Shown one piece after another: positions 33,732 to 59,349 of a stretch of 64,000 bases of DNA (positions are counted from its first letter, which is position 1; every line of letters begins with the position of its first letter). This stretch comes from Daphnia pulex (lineage: Eukaryota; Arthropoda; Branchiopoda; Diplostraca; Daphniidae). A model generated the notes under the pieces. It saw only the letters and a program-made list of their open reading frames with translations. It was not told where the DNA came from and searched no databases. A program made the translations under genes and the position numbers. The DNA lies in the NCBI RefSeq assembly GCF_021134715.1, contig NC_060023.1:682001-746000 (forward strand), in the 5' to 3' direction.

Positions 33732-36700
33732 ATGACAAAAATACCGGTAAGATTTCATTACACATACTATTAAGAAAAGATTGAACTTAACAATTGAATT
33801 TAAGTCTGCCTACCATCGTTTATGATTTAATCATGATTTGACAATAAAGATGATTGTTGTTTTTCTTTTCTTTTTTCGTCAATACATATTTTAGTTGATT
33901 GCTGTTTTTTCGGTTTGGCTCTTTGTTGTTTATGGCCAAATACCCTTCAATAACTTTGACCCTTATCACCCCTATTACATTCCCTACACTTCAACGTTTA
34001 CCAATCAACCCATTAAACACGTTAATGATGAAACGGCAGCTCAGTCTAGCGGAACTATTGAATTCAAAAATAATCCGAGCATTAGGGACCTTTACTATCG
34101 GGGTGGCATTTTTTTAAGAATAAAACAACTTGAAGAAACGACTGCTAGTTTAACAAGGCAACTGAAAGGTAAGAGGAAATCATTTTAGCAAACCCGTCAC
34201 ACTGAAATATTATTAAATAATGAAAATAATCCTAATCGTTAAATATTTAATAGAATAGAGATGTTTCTAACTTTCAATCGACTTTTACAGACACAAATGA
34301 CAATTTATTAATTGATTTAATTTTAACAGCGATGCAAACTGCTTTAGACACTAAGGCCGACATAACAGCGTTGGCCTTAAAGGCCGACAAAACAGCGTTG
34401 GCCTTAAAGGCCGACAAAACTGCGCTGGACGAAAAGGCCGACAAAACAGCCCTGGACGATAAGGCCGACAAAACAGCCCTGGACGATAAGGCCGACAAAA
34501 CAGCCCTGGACGATAAGGCCGACAAAACAGCCCTGGACGATAAGGCCGACAAAACAGCCCTGGACGCTAAGGCCGACAAAACAGCCCTGGACGATAAGGC
34601 CGACAAAACAGCCCTGGACGATAAGGCCGACAAAACAGCCCTGGACGATAAGGCCGACAAAACTGCGTTGGACGCTAAGGCCGACAAAACAGCCCTGGAC
34701 GATAAGGCCGACAAAACAGCCCTGGACGATAAGGCCGACAAAACAGCCCTGGACGATAAGGCCGACAAAACTGCGTTGGACGCTAAGGCCGACAAAACAG
34801 CCCTGGACGATAAGGCCGACAAAACAGCATTAGCCGCTAAGGCCGACATAACAGCGTTGGACGATAAGGCCGACAAAACAGCCCTGGACGCTAAGGCCGA
34901 CAAAACAGCCCTGGACGATAAGGCCGACAAAACAGCCCTGGACGATAAGGCCGACAAAACAGCCCTGGACGATAAGGCCGACAAAACAGCCCTGGACGAT
35001 AAGGCCGACAAAACAGCCCTGGACGATAAGGCCGACAAAACAGCCCTGGACGATAAGGCCGACAAAACAGCCCTGGACGATAAGGCCGACAAAACAGCCC
35101 TGGACGATAAGGCCGACAAAACTGCGTTGGACGCTAAGGCCGACAAAACAGCCCTGGACGATAAGGCCGACAAAACAGCCCTGGACGATAAGGCCGACAA
35201 AACAGCCCTGGACGATAAGGCCGACAAAACTGCGCTGGACGCTAAGGCCGACAAAACAGCCCTGGACGATAAGGCCGACAAAACGGCCCTGGACGATAAG
35301 GCCGACAAAACAGCCCTGGACGATAAGGCCGACAAAACTGCGTTGGACGCTAAGGCCGACAAAACAGCCCTGGACGATAAGGCCGACAAAACTGCGCTGG
35401 ACGCTAAGGCCGACAAAACAGCCCTGGACGATAAGGCCGACAAAACGGCCCTGGACGATAAGGCCGACAAAACAGCCCTGGACGATAAGGCCGACAAAAC
35501 TGCGTTGGACGCTAAGGCCGACAAAACAGCCCTGGACGATAAGGCCGACAAAACTGCGTTGGACGATAAGGCCGACAAAACAGCCCTGGACGATAAGGCC
35601 GACAAAACTGCGTTGGACGCTAAGGCCGACAAAACAGCCCTGGACGATAAGGCCGACAAAACAGCCCTGGACGATAAGGCCGACAAAACTGCGTTGGACG
35701 CTAAGGCCGACAAAACAGCCCTGGACGATAAGGCCGACAAAACTGCGCTGGACGATAAGGCCGACAAAACAGCCCTGGACGATAAGGCCGACAAAACAGC
35801 CCTGGACGATAAGGCCGACAAAACAGCCCTGGACGCTAAGGCCGACAAAACAGCCCTGGACGATAAGGCCGACAAAACTGCGTTGGACGCTAAGGCCGAC
35901 AAAACAGCCCTGGACGCTAAGGCCGACAAAACAGCCCTGGACGATAAGGCCGACAAAACTGCGTTGGACGCTAAGGCCGACAAAACAGCCCTGGACGATA
36001 AGGCCGACAAAACTGCGTTGGACGATAAGGCCGACAAAACAGCCCTGGACGATAAGGCCGACAAAACAGCCCTGGACGATAAGGCCGACAAAACTGCGTT
36101 GGACGCTAAGGCCGACAAAACAGCCCTGGACGATAAGGCCGACAAAACAGCCCTGGACGATAAGGCCGACAAAACAGCCCTGGACGATAAGGCCGACAAA
36201 ACTGCGCTGGACCCAATTAATACTGCTTTAAATAGTAAGGCAAAAAAAAACAGCTTCAAACTAAAAATATTTTAACAAATTTTCGAAAAATTTAAAGGAA
36301 AAATAATTCATTTTTACAATTTTGTTATAGAAATTACCACTCCCAGTTCTATTGGTAAAATCCCCACCTCATGTGGAGACCTCAAGACTATCGGATTCGT
36401 CAAAAGCGGAATCTTCTCCATCATGGACGGCAAACAAGTCAAAAACGTCTATTGCGATTTTACTAAAACAGCCGATTCAGGTACCGTAAAATATTTCGTT
36501 CAATATTTTTTACACATAGGCCTACTCGCCTACAGTATTCCACGCAGTATATAAAACATAACTTTTCTTTTTCTCTCGTTCGACCTCTTCATATGAAATA
36601 GAGTTGCAGAAAATGATCGGCACTGTCGACGTAAAATCTACAGCTATTTATTTCCACGCTAAAATGACGAATGTTTATTCGGCTGCCCTAACCACCATTC

Positions 36701-47834: not shown

Positions 47835-50800
47835 ATGACAAAAATATCGGTAAGATTTTCAGTGAATTCAAAATTGATTCGTCCTTTTTCTCAACATTAA
47901 AAATGACGTAAAATTTACCTTTTGACTTTTACCGTGATTGATGATTATGTCTTTTAATTTATAATTAATATATGTATGTATATAGGTGATAGCTGTTATT
48001 TGGGTTATGAACTGTGCCTTCTGCGGCCAGTTACCCGTTAATAACTTTGGGCCTTATCAGTCCTACTACGCTCCTTATCCTTCAATGTTCGTCGTTCAAC
48101 AACCCAACACGCAATTAAATGTTGAAACACCGACAGGATCTCAATCAGGCGGAACTGGTGAATTGGGCAACCCCTTCAACATGAAAACTTTTTCTTTTCA
48201 AGAGACCGTGACTTTTAAAATCAATCAACTTGAAGCAAAAATTGCGGATTTGACACAGCAATTAAAAGGTACAATTATTCATTCTTATCACACCACAAAA
48301 TATAATATACTTACTTTTTTAATTAAGTAAAGTGAACTACTGTAACAACAAAATAATTGTCAAAAACCTCTTTACAGCAACAAATGTTAAGTTGGCGGCC
48401 AAAGCCGAAAAAACAGCGTTGGACGAAAAGGCCGACAAAACTGCGCTGGACGCTAAGGCCGACAAAACGGAGTTGAACGAAAAGGCCGACAAAACTGCGC
48501 TGGACGCTAAGGCCGACAAAACAGCCCTGGACGAAAAGGCCGACAAAACAGCCCTGGACGAAAAGGCCGACAAAACTGCGCTGGACGCTAAGGCCGACAA
48601 AACGGAGTTGAACGAAAAGGCCGACAAAACTGCGCTGGACGCTAAGGCCGACAAAACAGCCCTGGACGAAAAGGCCGACAAAACAGCCCTGGACGAAAAG
48701 GCCGACAAAACTGCGCTGGACGCTAAGGCCGACAAAGCAGCCCTGGACGCTAAGGCCGACAAAACAGCCCTGGACGAAAAGGCCGACAAAACAGCGCTGG
48801 ACGATAAGGCCGACAAAACTGCGCTGGACGCTAAGGCCGACAAAACAGCCCTGGACGAAAAGGCCGACAAAACAGCGTTGGACGAAAAGGCCGACAAAAC
48901 TGCGCTGGACGCTAAGGCCGACAAAACGGAGTTGAACGAAAAGGCCGACAAAACAGCCCTGGACGAAAAGGCCGACAAAACAGCGCTGGACGATAAGGCC
49001 GACAAAACAGCCCTGGACGAAAAGGCCGACAAAACAGCGCTGGACGATAAGGCCGACAAAACAGCACTGGACGAAAAGGCCGACAAAACAGCGCTGGACG
49101 ATAAGGCCGACAAAACAGCCCTGGACGAAAAGGCCGACAGAATTGCGTTGGACGCTAAGGCCGACAAAACTGCGTTGGACGATAAGGCCGACAAAACAGC
49201 CCTGGACGCTAAAGCCGACAAAACAGCCCTGGACGAAAAGGCCGACAAAACAGCGCTGGACGATAAGGCCGACAAAACAGCCCTGGACGAAAAGGCCGAC
49301 AGAATTGCGTTGGCCGATCTGGCCTCCCAATCAGCTTTAGACGAAAAGGCCGACAAATCAGCGCTGGACGCTAAGGCCGACAAAACAGCGCTGGACGAAA
49401 AGGCCGACAAAACAGCCCTGGACGCTAAAGCCGACAAAACAGCCCTGGATGCTAAGGCCGACAAAGCGGCCCTGGACGATAAGGCCGACAAAACGGCCCT
49501 GGACGCTAAGGCCGACAAAACTGCGTTGGACGATAAGGCCGACAAAACAGCCCTGGACGCTAAAGCCGACAAAACAGCCCTGGATGCTAAAGCCGACAAA
49601 ACAGCCCTGGATGCTAAGGCCGACAAAACAGCCCTGGACGCTAAAGCCGACAAAACAGCCCTGGATGCTAAGGCCGACAAAACGGCCCTGGACGCTAAGG
49701 CCGACAAAACTGCGTTGGACGATAAGGCCGACAAAACAGCCCTGGACGCTAAGGCCGACAACACTGCGTTGGACAATAAGGCCGACAAAACTGCGCTGGA
49801 CGCTAAGGCCGACAAAACAGCCCTGGACGCTAAGGCCGACAAAACTGCGTTGGACGATAAGGCCGACAAAACAGCCCTGGACGCTAAAGCCGACAAAACA
49901 GCCCTGGACGAAAAGGCCGACAAAACAGCCCTGGACGATAAGGCCGACAAAACAGCCCTGGACGAAAAGGCCGACAGAATTGCGTTGGCCGATCTGGCCT
50001 CCCAATCAGCTTTAGACGAAAAGGCCGACAAATCAGCGCTGGACGCTAAGGCCGACAAAACTGCGTTGGACGATAAGGCCGACAAAACTGCGCTGGACGC
50101 TAAGGCCGACAAAACAGCCCTGGACGCTAAGGCCGACAAAACAGCCCTGGACGATAAGGCCGACAAATCAGCGCTGGACGCTAAGGCCGACAAAACTGCG
50201 TTGGACGATAAGGCCGACAAAACTGCGCTGGACGCTAAGGCCGACAAAACAGCCCTGGACGCTAAGGCCGACAAAACAGCCCTGGACGCTAAGGCCGACA
50301 AAACTGCGTTGGACTCTAAAGCCGACAAAACAGCCCTGGACGTAAAGGCCGACAAAACAGCCCTGGACGATAAGGCCGACAAAACAGCGCTGGACGATAA
50401 GGCCGACAAAACAGCCCTGGACGAAAAGGCCGACAGAATTGCGTTGGCCGATCTGGCCTCTCAATCAGCTTTAGACGAAAAGGCCGACAAAACAGCGCTG
50501 GACGCTAAGGCCGACAAAACAGCCCTGGACGCTAAGGCCGACAAAACAGCCCTGGACGCTAAGGCCGACAAAACTGCGTTGGACTCGAAAGCCGACAAAA
50601 CAGCCCTTGACGAAAAGGCTGACAAAACAGCGCTGGACGATAAGGCCGACAAAACAGCCCTGGACGAAAAGGCCGACAGAATTGCGTTGGCCGATCTGGC
50701 CTCCCAATCAGCTTTAGACGAAAAGGCCGACAAAACAGCGCTGGACGCTAAGGCCGACAAAACAGCCCTGGACGCTAAAGCCGACAAAACAGCCCTGGAC

Positions 50801-52183
50801 GATAAGGCCGACAAAACAGCGCTGGACGACAAGGCCGACAAAACAGCCCTGGACGAAAAGGCCGACAAAACAGCCCTGGACGCTAAAGCCGACAAAACAG
50901 CCCTGGACGATAAGGCCGACAAAACAGCGCTGGACGACAAGGCCGACAAAACAGCCCTGGACGCTAAAGCCGACAAAACAGCCCTGGACGAAAAGGCCGA
51001 CAAAACAGCCCTGGACGATAAGGCCGACAAAACAGCGCTGGACGACAAGGCCGACAAAACAGCCCTGGACGCTAAAGCCGACAAAACAGCCCTGGACGAT
51101 AAGGCCGACAAAACAGCGCTGGACGACAAGGCCGACAAAACAGCCCTGGACGCTAAAGCCGACAAAACAGCCCTGGACGAAAAGGCCGACAAAACAGCCC
51201 TGGACGATAAGGCCGACAAAACAGCCCTGGACGACAAGGCCGACAAAACAGCCCTGGACGATAAGGCCGACAAAACAGCGCTGGACGACAAGGCCGACAA
51301 AACAGCCCTGGACGCTAAAGCCGACAAAACAGCCCTGGACGAAAAGGCCGACAAATCAGCCCTGGACGCTAAGGCCGACAAAACAGCTTTAAATAGTAAG
51401 GCAAAAAAACAGCTTCAAACTAAAAATGTTTTTACAAATTTTCGATAAATGTAAAGGAAGAATCGTTCATTTTTATAATTTTGTATAGAAATTACCACTC
51501 CCAGTTCTATTGGTACAATCCCAACCTCATGTGGAGACCTGAAGACTATCGGCTTCGTCAAAAGCGGAATCTACTCCATCATGGACAGCAAACGAGTAAA
51601 AAACGTCTATTGCGATTTTACTAAAACAACCGATGCAGGTAGTATTAGGCTACAATAAAATATTTCACTTTAATAATTGTAAATAATAACTTTCCTTTTG
51701 TTCTCGTTTGACAACTTTTCTAACAAAATAGAGTTGCAGAAAATGATCGGTACAGTCGACGTGAAATCAACACCTACTTATTTCCACGCTCAAATGTCAA
51801 AGACTTATTCGGCTGCCCTAACCACCGTTCAATTTGATTCAATCAAACTCAATGTGGGAACTGCCCTTAACCCTGCCACTGGAATATTCGTCGCTCCTAC
51901 ATCAGGGAAGTATTATTTCGCTTACTCGGGCTTAAGTGATGCAGGCGTCAGAGCACGAGTTAGGATGCAAACGGCGAATGCTGGAACAACGAATTGGAAA
52001 CTAGTCGGAGAAGGGTACGGTGACCCCTCCTACAAGACTTTTTCCATGCATGCTACATTGGAACTTGTCAAAGGCGACCAAGTTAGGCTGTACTTATCAG
52101 AAGGAATAATTCACGAGGCTAATTTAGCTTATTATTTTAATTATGTTGGTTGGCTATTGGAAGAGAACGAGTTAACGGTTTGA
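47835..52183 (+). CDS. Secreted C1q protein B with a 111-unit nonapeptide stalk
   Basis: Five exons (47835-47849, 47986-48268, 48378-51395, 51489-51638, 51732-52183) give 1305 residues with the same structure as protein A: MTKIS in exon 1, the rest of the signal peptide in exon 2 (VIAVIWVMNCAFCGQ), a Pro/Tyr-rich piece and a short coiled coil, a 3018-nt stalk exon, the cysteine module, then C1q (GIFVAPTSGKYYFAYSG). Lysine codons of the first and last unit (48401 and 51371) are exactly 110 x 27 bp apart, so there are 111 units. Position 8 varies among D, A and E, and ELNEK units occur near the start. A special unit, IALADLASQSALDEK, occurs four times. The donor was set at GTAAGG (51396) by phase. 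Proteins A and B arose by duplication and then expanded their stalks separately. Confidence 0.88.
48401..51390 (+). repeat. 27-bp coding minisatellite, 111 units
   Basis: Every unit is 27 bp and in frame. Marker units (AGAATTGCGTTGGCCGATCT) start at 49301, 49976, 50435 and 50678, spaced 25, 17 and 9 units apart, which records higher-order block duplications inside the array. Confidence 0.95.
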
Positions 52184-53751: not shown

Positions 53752-56401
53752 TTAAATGGCTTCCAGGGTAAGTCGGAGTCCGTCGCTGAAATGGGACGAC
53801 AATATTCGGGAGCAGCAAAGTGATTTGACGACGTCGATGCCTTGGACGACGTCGCCAAAGCGTAGCGATGTCTTGGGTTGGTGATTGCCGGGACTCTTGT
53901 CACGAAGGAGAAACACGAATTGCCATCCGGTGACACGTCGACTGTTGCCATCTCTCCTGTGGGAGCTCTGGATGCCAGTGATGCCCACCTGGCATGATTT
54001 TTCGGCGCATTCAGAGTCCACCCATATGGCATAATTCAACAATTCCGGAACTACCGGCTGGAACAGGGCGTTCTTCACTTTCAAACTTACGGACGTATCA
54101 CCGGTCGACTATCAAAAAATTTATGATAAGTCAAACAAATTTACAAAACATGAACTCATTTTTTAAAAATTTACCTTAACAATCCGCCGACCAATTTTTC
54201 TTGGATTACCAATGCAGAATTCCCACAATTCCTGAATGAATTTGCTGCTACCAAAGAGCGCCCAAGGTTTGATGTGAATCTTGCCCAGCAAGCGGCCTCT
54301 CTTCGTGACCGAAAGGAGAAAAATGGATCGGTTGATATCGAACTTGAGCGGCAGCGACAAAACCGTGTGGATTCCAATTGTCAATTCCCGCCGGTGTTCC
54401 AAAGCTTCAAAACTTCCCGGAATGTCTTCTTCTTCCAACAGTTCAGCTAGGTGATCCATCAACTTCGTTTGGGTCATGGTGGCCAGACATCTCGGTACTC
54501 TTCTACTGGCCAAACATTCGTCCCTGAATCTGTCCAGGCAATTACCAACGACGTTGTCGGGAATTTCAATCGAACAAGCCACCAATCGCGAACCCAGGTA
54601 GATAATTGTCTCCTTCAATAAGTCGTACGCCCTGGGCACAGATAATAATATGTTAATTCTGAATTTCAATTTTAATTAGAGGTACATTTTTACTTTTTAG
54701 CAACGGAGGGTTCGGAATATAAGGACATTTTCCAGAGGAATTCCAGTCCGGGTGTAGGATCGATCACATCATCGGTGAAGGTGTCTCCAGCCGAGCACTG
54801 GACAGCCAAGAAGAAATGTTGGAAACAGTCGATGAAGAAATGAGTTTGGTACGTCATCTGGCGAGGATCTAGCTTCAAAATGTGATGGTGGAAAATTCGC
54901 TGGTGGCTTTTAGGGTCCAGGACGTTCATTTCGATAGCTCTGCTGAACCATTCGAAGCACACGTCGGAATCTGAGGCGGAAACAGTTCCGCCTACAAGGC
55001 AGGTCCAGATGGAAACGGCATCCGAGTCGCTCAACACCAATTGACCATATTTAAGGATCATTAGAATGAATGTAAGTCGTTCTTGAATGGCTGCCGGATG
55101 AGCTTGGTTAGCTCCCGTCCAGTTTAAACGAACGTCTGCCATGTAGGCCACGATTTCAGCTACGGCTAGATCTAGTAGGTGCCATTCTTGATTGAGAAAC
55201 ATGTAAATCTCCTTGTACTTTAGCCAGACCAACTCGGTGAATTCGGCGGATTGTTGGTAGTGGTCGTTAGACGAGGCCGATTTGACGGCGTACAAGTAAC
55301 ACAAGTGACGGATCAATTTCATGGCTACCATCACGGATCGCTGCTGTTCCCTGTGCTGGATTATCTGGATGCAGTTCAGGATCCAGTGGCTCACCAGATC
55401 GCTGTTGAAGCAATCATTCAAAATCTTGCACTGGATGTCGATGCAGGAATCCATCAGTTCATCGGGCGTGTCTGGGCATTGCACGAACTCCAAAATGACG
55501 TCTAAAACCTTTACGTTAAAGTGATATCAGCTATGGAATGACAAAATGTAGTAGTCATGCAAATACTTGAAATGGGACGTCATCGTAATCAGTCTCGTTG
55601 GCCAAAGTACGAATAAAATTCAACAATGCGTAGCGTTGGGTCACATCGACCGAGTTCCAACGTGCCTAGACAAGAAAATAGAGATAAGGAAATCTAGGAA
55701 ATGAGGGCGCAACAACCTGTGATATGTGAAATATGCACCTGAATGTCGCTGATAAGGTAGTTCACGTGTTGGAGCGTGAATTCTTTGACGCAAGAAATGA
55801 CAGTCTGATGCAATTGAACAACATAAGCCCCGTTTGTCCAACGGTCTTGAATTTTCCAAACAGGTTCCAACGATCTTGTCGAATCTTTCACGACAAACTG
55901 AATAATTTTGCGCAGTTGATCGAAAAACACTTTGTCTTCCGGCGAGTGAATTTCTAGTAGTTCTTTTATAAAATCATCCACTTCCAAACTGCATATAACC
56001 GTAAGAAAAAAAATTATCAACAATTTTATTCTACCATTTAAAAAAAAGTTTAATGAAAACCTCTCGGAGAGACACGTCAGTTTTTGACATTTCAATTTTT
56101 CGTTCAACTTGATCATGTGCAAAAGAGCTTGATTGGTTGGCAGTTGCTCAACGCTTTGCAAACGGTCAGACCGACGACAAACCGGACATTTAATTACTGC
56201 TCCATGATTATAGATTTGCTGTCATTTGAATCACATTAATGACCATGTTTTAAAATATAAAATGAAAAGTAATTTCACCTTGAGGCACGTGAGACAAACG
56301 GTGTGAGAGCAAGACAATAACTTGGGTTTGACCTGATGGTCATCAAACTGCAAATAGCAGACACGACACGTGATGTAATGCTCCGTTGCGTCCTCTTCCA
56401 T
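53752..56401 (-). CDS. RING finger fused to USP9X/fat-facets-like scaffold
   Basis: Seven exons on the minus strand (56401-56279, 56218-56061, 55988-55739, 55665-55567, 55508-54694, 54631-54175, 54108-53752) give 752 residues with all phases closing. Residues about 11-60 form a RING: C-R-V-C, then CSHTVCLTC, then CPVC, the fold that recruits E2 enzymes in ubiquitin ligases. From about 170 to 580 the protein matches the N-terminal helical scaffold of USP9X-type deubiquitinases: VAYMADVRL, QERLTFILMILKYGQL, CFEWFSRAIE, ILKLDPRQMT, LEFLWKMSLYSEPSVAKKAY, and IGIHTVLSLPLKF near the ubiquitin-like part. The cysteine protease domain is absent; a 118-residue unrecognised tail ends the protein. Joining a ligase RING to the substrate-binding part of a deubiquitinase would reverse its output (inference). 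The RING exons join the scaffold through a phase-compatible intron. Confidence 0.78.
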
Positions 56402-58752: not shown

Positions 58753-59349
58753 TTAGAAGTAGTAAGAGTAGGCTGGATATTGCGGGAATCCGTAATTGAA
58801 TCCGTAACCGAAACGGGCAGCGGGAAAGCCGTAGTAACCGTACGGGTAAGCTGCTGGTAGGGCCACAGTTGAGATGACGGGCGCGGCTTTAGCTTCGACT
58901 ACTGGCACTTCGGCAACAGCTGGAACAGCAGGTACCTCTGGCACAGCTGGAACTTCAGGAGAGACGGGCAAATGGTCACCTGTGGCACGGTAACCTTTCT
59001 CATCAGCTTCGTAGTTGATGGTGTAAGTCTTGCCTTCGGCGACGTAACTAATCCGATTGCAATTTTTTTTTAAATTTCAGGATCGTCAAACAACTTTTTA
59101 GTGAAAAATGATGAAGTCCCTTATTACCTGTAGGATCCTTTGACAGCGTTGCCAGCATCTCCAGTCTGGGAGTGTTTATGATCTTCCACGTCGTAACTCA
59201 GGATTTCCTCGGGAGCCGGGGCAGCCAGAGCGACAGCCAAGAAGCAAACAATCAGCACCTGTTTAAAAAAAAGGCAGTTGGTAAATCAGCAGTTGGTTTG
59301 AATTACAATTTTAATCTAGAAATATTATTCAACTTACCGTCTTGATCAT
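58753..59349 (-). CDS. RR-type chitin-binding cuticle protein
   Basis: Three exons on the minus strand (59349-59338, 59258-59128, 59047-58753) give 145 residues. A four-residue first exon (MIKT) and VLIVCFLAVALAAPAPEE form the signal peptide, cleaved near APA. Residues about 25-80 are a Rebers-Riddiford chitin-binding domain of the soft-cuticle (RR-1) kind: SYDVEDHKHSQTGDAGNAVKG, then SYVAEGKTYTINYEADEKGY. The tail is rich in Pro-Val-Ala repeats (VPAVPEVPAVPAV) and then Tyr/Gly/Phe (YPYGYYGFPAA), both typical of extracellular cuticle proteins. The short exon 1 with a phase-0 intron after the first few codons is common in arthropod cuticle genes. A TATA-like TATTTAAG lies about 80 bp upstream. 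Confidence 0.92.

Follow-up and report, generated by a model that had tools for sequence, protein, structure and literature searches.

A predicted Daphnia pulex gene that joins the RING and tail of a TRIM-like family to a scaffold of USP9X origin

The gene and its product

The window analysed here, a stretch of 64,000 nucleotides from Daphnia pulex (NC_060023.1, positions 682,001 to 746,000 of the forward strand, or C7:682-746 kb in the coordinates used below), contains a gene of seven exons on the minus strand, running from 56401 to 53752. When rebuilt from the DNA, the exons form a single frame of 752 amino acids (Table 1), and the six introns, all GT-AG, measure 58-73 nt. Elsewhere in the window are two arrays of a 27-bp unit, one with 68.9 copies at 34352-36212 and the other with 110.5 copies at 48404-51387; the second lies within a 1041-aa open frame made of a repeated ADKTALD-type unit, and just after it comes a frame with a C1q domain (51683-52183; PF00386, E 3.6e-13). 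A fragment of a cuticle protein is found at 58753-59076 on the minus strand (Chitin_bind_4, E 5.1e-7).

Table 1. Exons of the fusion gene (positions in the window), the open frame through intron 2, and loci elsewhere in the genome with a related tail
Feature	Location	Strand	Content
Exon 1	56279..56401	minus	Start codon; RING, first half (ligands C12, C15, C31, H33, C36, C39)
Exon 2	56061..56218	minus	Second half of the RING (C52, C55) and LPTN motif; phase 2 exit like that of the cluster genes
Exon 3	55739..55988	minus	Start of the USP9X-derived scaffold; 5' intron in phase 2, the phase of a nearby USP9X intron
Exon 4	55567..55665	minus	Scaffold; both boundaries in phase 0, matching USP9X introns
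Exon 5	54694..55508	minus	Largest scaffold block; 3' boundary in phase 2, matching a USP9X intron
Exon 6	54175..54631	minus	Chimeric: end of the scaffold and first part of the C-terminal domain
Exon 7	53752..54108	minus	C-terminal domain (remainder), stop codon; phase 0 break between exons 6 and 7 placed as in the cluster genes
Open frame, exon 2-intron 2-exon 3	55694..56221	minus	No stop; in frame with or without splicing of intron 2
Tail loci	C7:282-326 kb	minus	13 (tandem cluster, by eye)
Tail loci	C7:587-612 kb	plus	5 (tandem cluster, by eye)
Tail loci	C9		2 (by eye)
Tail loci	C10		1 (by eye)

Several features of the DNA bear on whether these exons belong to one gene. A codon score, trained on a small set of 2643 codons, was highest for the assigned frame in all seven exons and negative in the introns, with thin margins for exons 2 and 7; over the whole coding sequence, a reverse frame scored 0.148 versus 0.155 for the assigned frame. 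No stop interrupts the 752 codons, even though the scaffold differs from the USP9X paralog at 65% of its aligned residues. Moreover, the end of the RING and the start of the scaffold are contained in one open frame that passes through intron 2, which makes it unlikely that they belong to two separate genes. A Pfam scan of this read-through, from exon 2 into exon 3, found no family at E 0.01.

An earlier note on this DNA had proposed a complete N-terminal RING fused to a scaffold like that of USP9X, a ubiquitin-removing enzyme, and both parts are borne out. The RING matches Pfam zf-RING_5 (PF14634) over residues 12-57 with an E of 3.1e-7, above the cut-off of that family, and its set of zinc ligands, of the C3HC4 type, is complete (eight of eight). 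The last ligand is followed by an arginine, a residue that in this position has a role in E2 activation. The nearest match of the RING in the PDB is TRIM32 (5fey, E 3e-11). For the scaffold, Pfam ARM_UBP24_USP9X-Y (PF25010) matches residues 112-446 over profile positions 78-419 of 420 (E 1.1e-47), and residues 107-518 align in one collinear stretch with positions 422-842 of the USP9X chain in PDB entry 7yxx (E 1.5e-40). The profile search against USP9X scaffold models that the note had suggested thus came out in its favour, and the likeness, as the note had argued, is not due to chance. The limits given there for the scaffold, residues 170-580, were wrong, since it really occupies about 410 residues from near 107 to 518, with a weak likeness continuing to about residue 568. 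Overlooked altogether was a further C-terminal domain in residues 582-752, which matches no Pfam family.

The statement that the gene lacks a protease also holds up: the reading frame stops at 53752, Pfam finds no UCH protease in the protein, and the 66 UCH matches of the genome all fall outside the window. No zf-B_box was found in the protein among Pfam matches up to E 10, and the place of the TRIM coiled coil is taken by the USP9X scaffold. By definition, then, the fusion protein is neither a TRIM (no B-box match) nor a deubiquitinase (no protease), and by its RING, its tail and the structure of its gene we assign it to a TRIM-like family. Searches found no relatives of the whole protein in plasmids and no relatives of exon 5 in viral contigs.

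Sources of the RING, the tail and the scaffold

A search of the genome with the whole protein yielded at least 41 RING matches outside the fusion gene, of which at least 28 map to C7:283-371 kb or C7:577-610 kb; these counts are lower bounds, with 60 of the 91 candidates scored. The best 12 RING matches outside the fusion gene all fall within these two clusters, and residues 582-752 match the same C7 family as the RING. When the genome was searched with the tail of one family member, 42 exon matches were obtained at E 0.1 or better, corresponding, when grouped by eye, to 21 loci besides the fusion gene (Table 1), and the fusion gene itself was recovered at E 0.0125. The tail closest to that of the fusion gene belongs to a locus at C7:4043 kb (L054), with a score of 171, a z of 31.5 and none of 500 shuffles as good. 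In a tree of the RINGs, the placement of the fusion gene has a support of 26, and the nearest relative is not resolved.

The family members that were read consist of a two-exon RING, a helical-looking stretch and the tail, and several of them carry, between RING and tail, a B-box-like WCxTCG...H stretch that is not called by Pfam. The likeness of the fusion gene to this family (C7:282-328 kb, C7:587-612 kb and L054) extends to gene structure. The RING is split at the same place, and its second exon has a phase 2 exit in each of the seven cluster genes inspected by eye, although in one of them the donor was deduced from the frame of the acceptor. The LPTN motif in exon 2 resembles the LPNN/LPTN of the cluster. 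The C-terminal domain is interrupted in phase 0, at a position shared with the fusion gene, in all 14 cluster pairs read. Where the family has its B-box-like and helical middle, the fusion gene instead has the USP9X scaffold exons. From these comparisons we conclude that RING and tail come from the TRIM-like family, the fusion gene being a member in which the middle was exchanged. No description of the tandem C7 clusters, whose RING/B-box-like genes share this tail, was found in the open papers searched.

Where did the replacement come from? The genome contains, as the earlier note had proposed to check, a separate USP9X gene with its protease, located at C7:4631.7-4637.7 kb (scaffold exons at C7:4636.1-4637.7 kb, UCH at C7:4631.7-4632.9 kb), as well as a USP24-like gene at C2:7241.7-7248.5 kb. 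All 11 genome matches to PF25010 at E 1 or better are in USP9X, the USP24-like gene or the fusion gene. The scaffold of the fusion protein is identical to the USP9X of the same genome at 140 of 400 residues (138 of 399, or 35%, in a second alignment), and its alignment with the USP24-like gene is weak. Daphnia and human USP9X are identical at 298 of 417 residues (71%), which implies that the copy in the fusion gene has changed much faster. At sites where these two USP9X proteins differ, the scaffold sides with the Daphnia protein 30 times and with the human protein 10 times, and the duplication therefore postdates the split of arthropods and vertebrates.

The introns tell a similar story. Three introns of USP9X recur in the fusion gene at aligned places and in the same phase (in the contexts given, the hyphen marks the intron): before residue 178 (phase 0, Q-A), before residue 211 (phase 0, Q/K-VL) and in codon 482 (phase 2, AA-R). 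The fusion gene lacks one further intron that USP9X has near residue 345. The kept introns indicate that the scaffold was copied as DNA and not from a messenger, and we conclude from alignment and gene structure that it derives from USP9X by duplication of DNA.

At the 5' joint, the RING exons exit in phase 2 and the USP9X exons are entered in phase 2, a combination that points to a seam made by exon shuffling. The seam intron itself (AG-N) is in phase 2 in both the fusion gene and USP9X; it falls in a region that does not align, its distance to the first aligned residue being 13 residues in the fusion and 19 in USP9X, so that identity of place cannot be shown. The 3' seam falls inside exon 6, where the likeness to USP9X is clear up to residue 518 and the family tail begins near residue 582. 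Residues 536-568, when compared with USP9X, reach a score of 36 versus 23.4 +- 4.6 for shuffled sequences, 22 of 1000 of which were as good.

A local origin of the fusion was considered because a B-box/cyclophilin gene (L072, at C7:4662 kb) shares its strand with USP9X and lies upstream of the USP9X exons at a distance of about 23 kb. Within the 9.8 kb adjoining these exons there is no convincing match to the RING or the tail (best E 0.041), and the long frames in this segment are on the opposite strand; on the evidence of these 9.8 kb, the candidate was rejected.

Affinities of the C-terminal domain

The C-terminal domain is likely to be cyclophilin-like and, judging from its sequence, is probably a much-changed, catalytically dead cyclophilin. 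Direct searches did not reveal such a relation. None of the 14 members of the first tail alignment matches the cyclophilin profile PF00160 up to E 10, a phmmer search of the PDB with the tail gave no cyclophilin up to E 10, and the tail profile gave weak unrelated PDB matches and no cyclophilin. A single-sequence AlphaFold model of the tail had a mean pLDDT of 34.9 and was unusable, and a first hhalign comparison with cyclophilins gave short local matches only.

Pairwise and profile comparisons give mixed signs of a relation. Two genes on C7 have cyclophilin domains that Pfam recognises: L072 (PF00160, E 5.2e-15; PDB cyclophilin D, E 2.3e-27), with a B-box below the cut-off, and a gene at C7:1130 kb (L075) that combines a RING-like stretch, seen by eye, with a cyclophilin (PF00160, E 1.2e-6). 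The tail of the fusion protein aligns with L072 at a z of 5.5 (none of 500 shuffles as good), with a cyclophilin A at 2.9 (7 of 500) and with L075 at 1.8 (32 of 500). For the L054 tail, 5 of 500 shuffles were as good as its alignment with cyclophilin A, and 75 of 500 were as good as its alignment with L072.

Profile comparisons gave results that depend on the set of cyclophilins used. When a 15-tail profile was aligned globally with one built from 10 cyclophilins (hhalign), the alignment was collinear over the full length and scored 24.2, or 29.6 once a 16th tail had been added; none of 60 column shuffles and none of 60 block shuffles were as good as the global scores, and 1 of 60 block shuffles was as good as the local score of the 16-row alignment. 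With a set of 4 cyclophilins, between 2 and 6 of the 60 block shuffles equalled the score, depending on the setting (globally, 6 and 4 of 60 for the 15- and 16-row alignments). The first alignment of the tails, in which two rows carried wrong letters later corrected from the DNA, had led to the same conclusions; it scored 24.0 against the 10 cyclophilins, with none of 100 shuffles as good in both nulls, and against the 4-cyclophilin set 49 of 100 shuffles were as good in the global comparison. No catalytic stretch of cyclophilins is recognised in the tail, which would accordingly serve for binding. A possible counterpart of L072 is Drosophila CG5071, reported in PMC2533329 as a tripartite motif protein with a cyclophilin domain.

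Predicted activity and alternative readings

The fusion protein can be compared with three known systems. With USP9X and fat facets it shares the stretch collinear with human USP9X 422-842, and with the USP9X of its own genome the three intron places and phases plus the phase of the seam intron; unlike these proteins, it has only part of USP9X, no UCH, a RING in front and another tail behind. Its relation to the TRIM-like family has been set out above. Like the TRIM-cyclophilins of PMC2533329 and PMC3137616 (CG5071, TRIM5-CypA and zebrafish ftr52), it combines an N-terminal RING module with a tail that is probably derived from cyclophilin, but it shows no B-box match and the cyclophilin profile does not detect its tail. 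The exchange of modules among TRIMs by shuffling is already known (PMC3137616). No description of a RING-USP9X scaffold protein was found in the open literature searched, and no TRIM-cyclophilin family like this one in Daphnia was found by title in the literature searched.

The reading that we moderately favour is that the gene encodes a chimeric RING-type ubiquitin ligase, formed from a TRIM-like gene whose middle was replaced by duplicated exons of the USP9X armadillo scaffold. An ancestral gene with a RING, a B-box-like Cys/His stretch, a helical stretch and a cyclophilin-like tail would have had its middle swapped for these exons. In the resulting protein, the RING would recruit a charged E2, the alpha-solenoid scaffold would act as an arm on which a client or partner is held, and the catalytically dead cyclophilin-like tail would provide a second binding site, such that the client of the fusion protein would receive ubiquitin. 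Considering the fast divergence of the scaffold, these clients are expected to differ from most of those of USP9X. Membership in a TRIM-like family would offer another source of client choice, one that the earlier note had not considered.

A tentative alternative is that the protein serves in defence in the manner of TRIMCyp, with a tail that reads targets of pathogen or self origin and a USP9X piece that acts as a spacer or assembly arm. The tail is shared by about 21 tandem and dispersed loci, as grouped by eye, and RING genes with cyclophilin domains have precedents in the TRIM-cyclophilin gene CG5071 of Drosophila and TRIM5-CypA of primates (PMC2533329) and in a zebrafish TRIM with a cyclophilin (PMC3137616). 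Against this reading, the relation of the tail to cyclophilins is only moderately supported.

If the scaffold still recognised what USP9X recognises, the fusion protein could instead be a ligase opposing USP9X on the same clients, as the earlier note had proposed, in which the scaffold binds the clients or partners of USP9X and the RING marks them for breakdown. The nearly complete coverage of the PF25010 profile, the origin of the scaffold by duplication of USP9X and the retention of a protease-bearing USP9X in the genome all speak for such an arrangement. Still, it appears somewhat unlikely, given that most of USP9X is missing from the fusion. Client sharing between the two proteins is doubtful because the scaffold is only 35% identical to a USP9X that is itself 71% identical to the human protein. 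Also unlikely, by a little more, is the fuller version of this idea, in which a single working gene encodes a ligase made out of a deubiquitinase; this ligase would attach to the clients or complexes of USP9X and reverse the action of USP9X, with the dead-cyclophilin tail as a second reader.

TRIM proteins usually dimerise, and with the middle of the family replaced by the scaffold, the usual dimer may be lost in the fusion protein. This consideration favours a RING-bearing decoy without ligase activity, which might pair through its RING with the RINGs of TRIM-like proteins or compete with USP9X through its scaffold; the retention of all eight zinc ligands argues against it, and we regard it as improbable. 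Lastly, a false join of two adjacent genes, or a chimeric pseudogene that is decaying and makes no product, are very improbable readings, for although Pfam found no family in the read-through across intron 2, the open frame shared there by RING and scaffold, the stop-free coding sequence of a diverged copy, the uniformly GT-AG introns and the best codon score of the assigned frame in every exon all stand against them.

Read as a chimeric RING-type ligase, the gene would be a case in which the scaffold of a deubiquitinase has been reused in an apparent ligase, and in which the intron phases record how the joint was made. It also brings to light a fairly large family of RING genes that have a cyclophilin-like tail in common, and it makes it possible to test whether one client-holding platform can serve both ubiquitin-adding and ubiquitin-removing enzymes.
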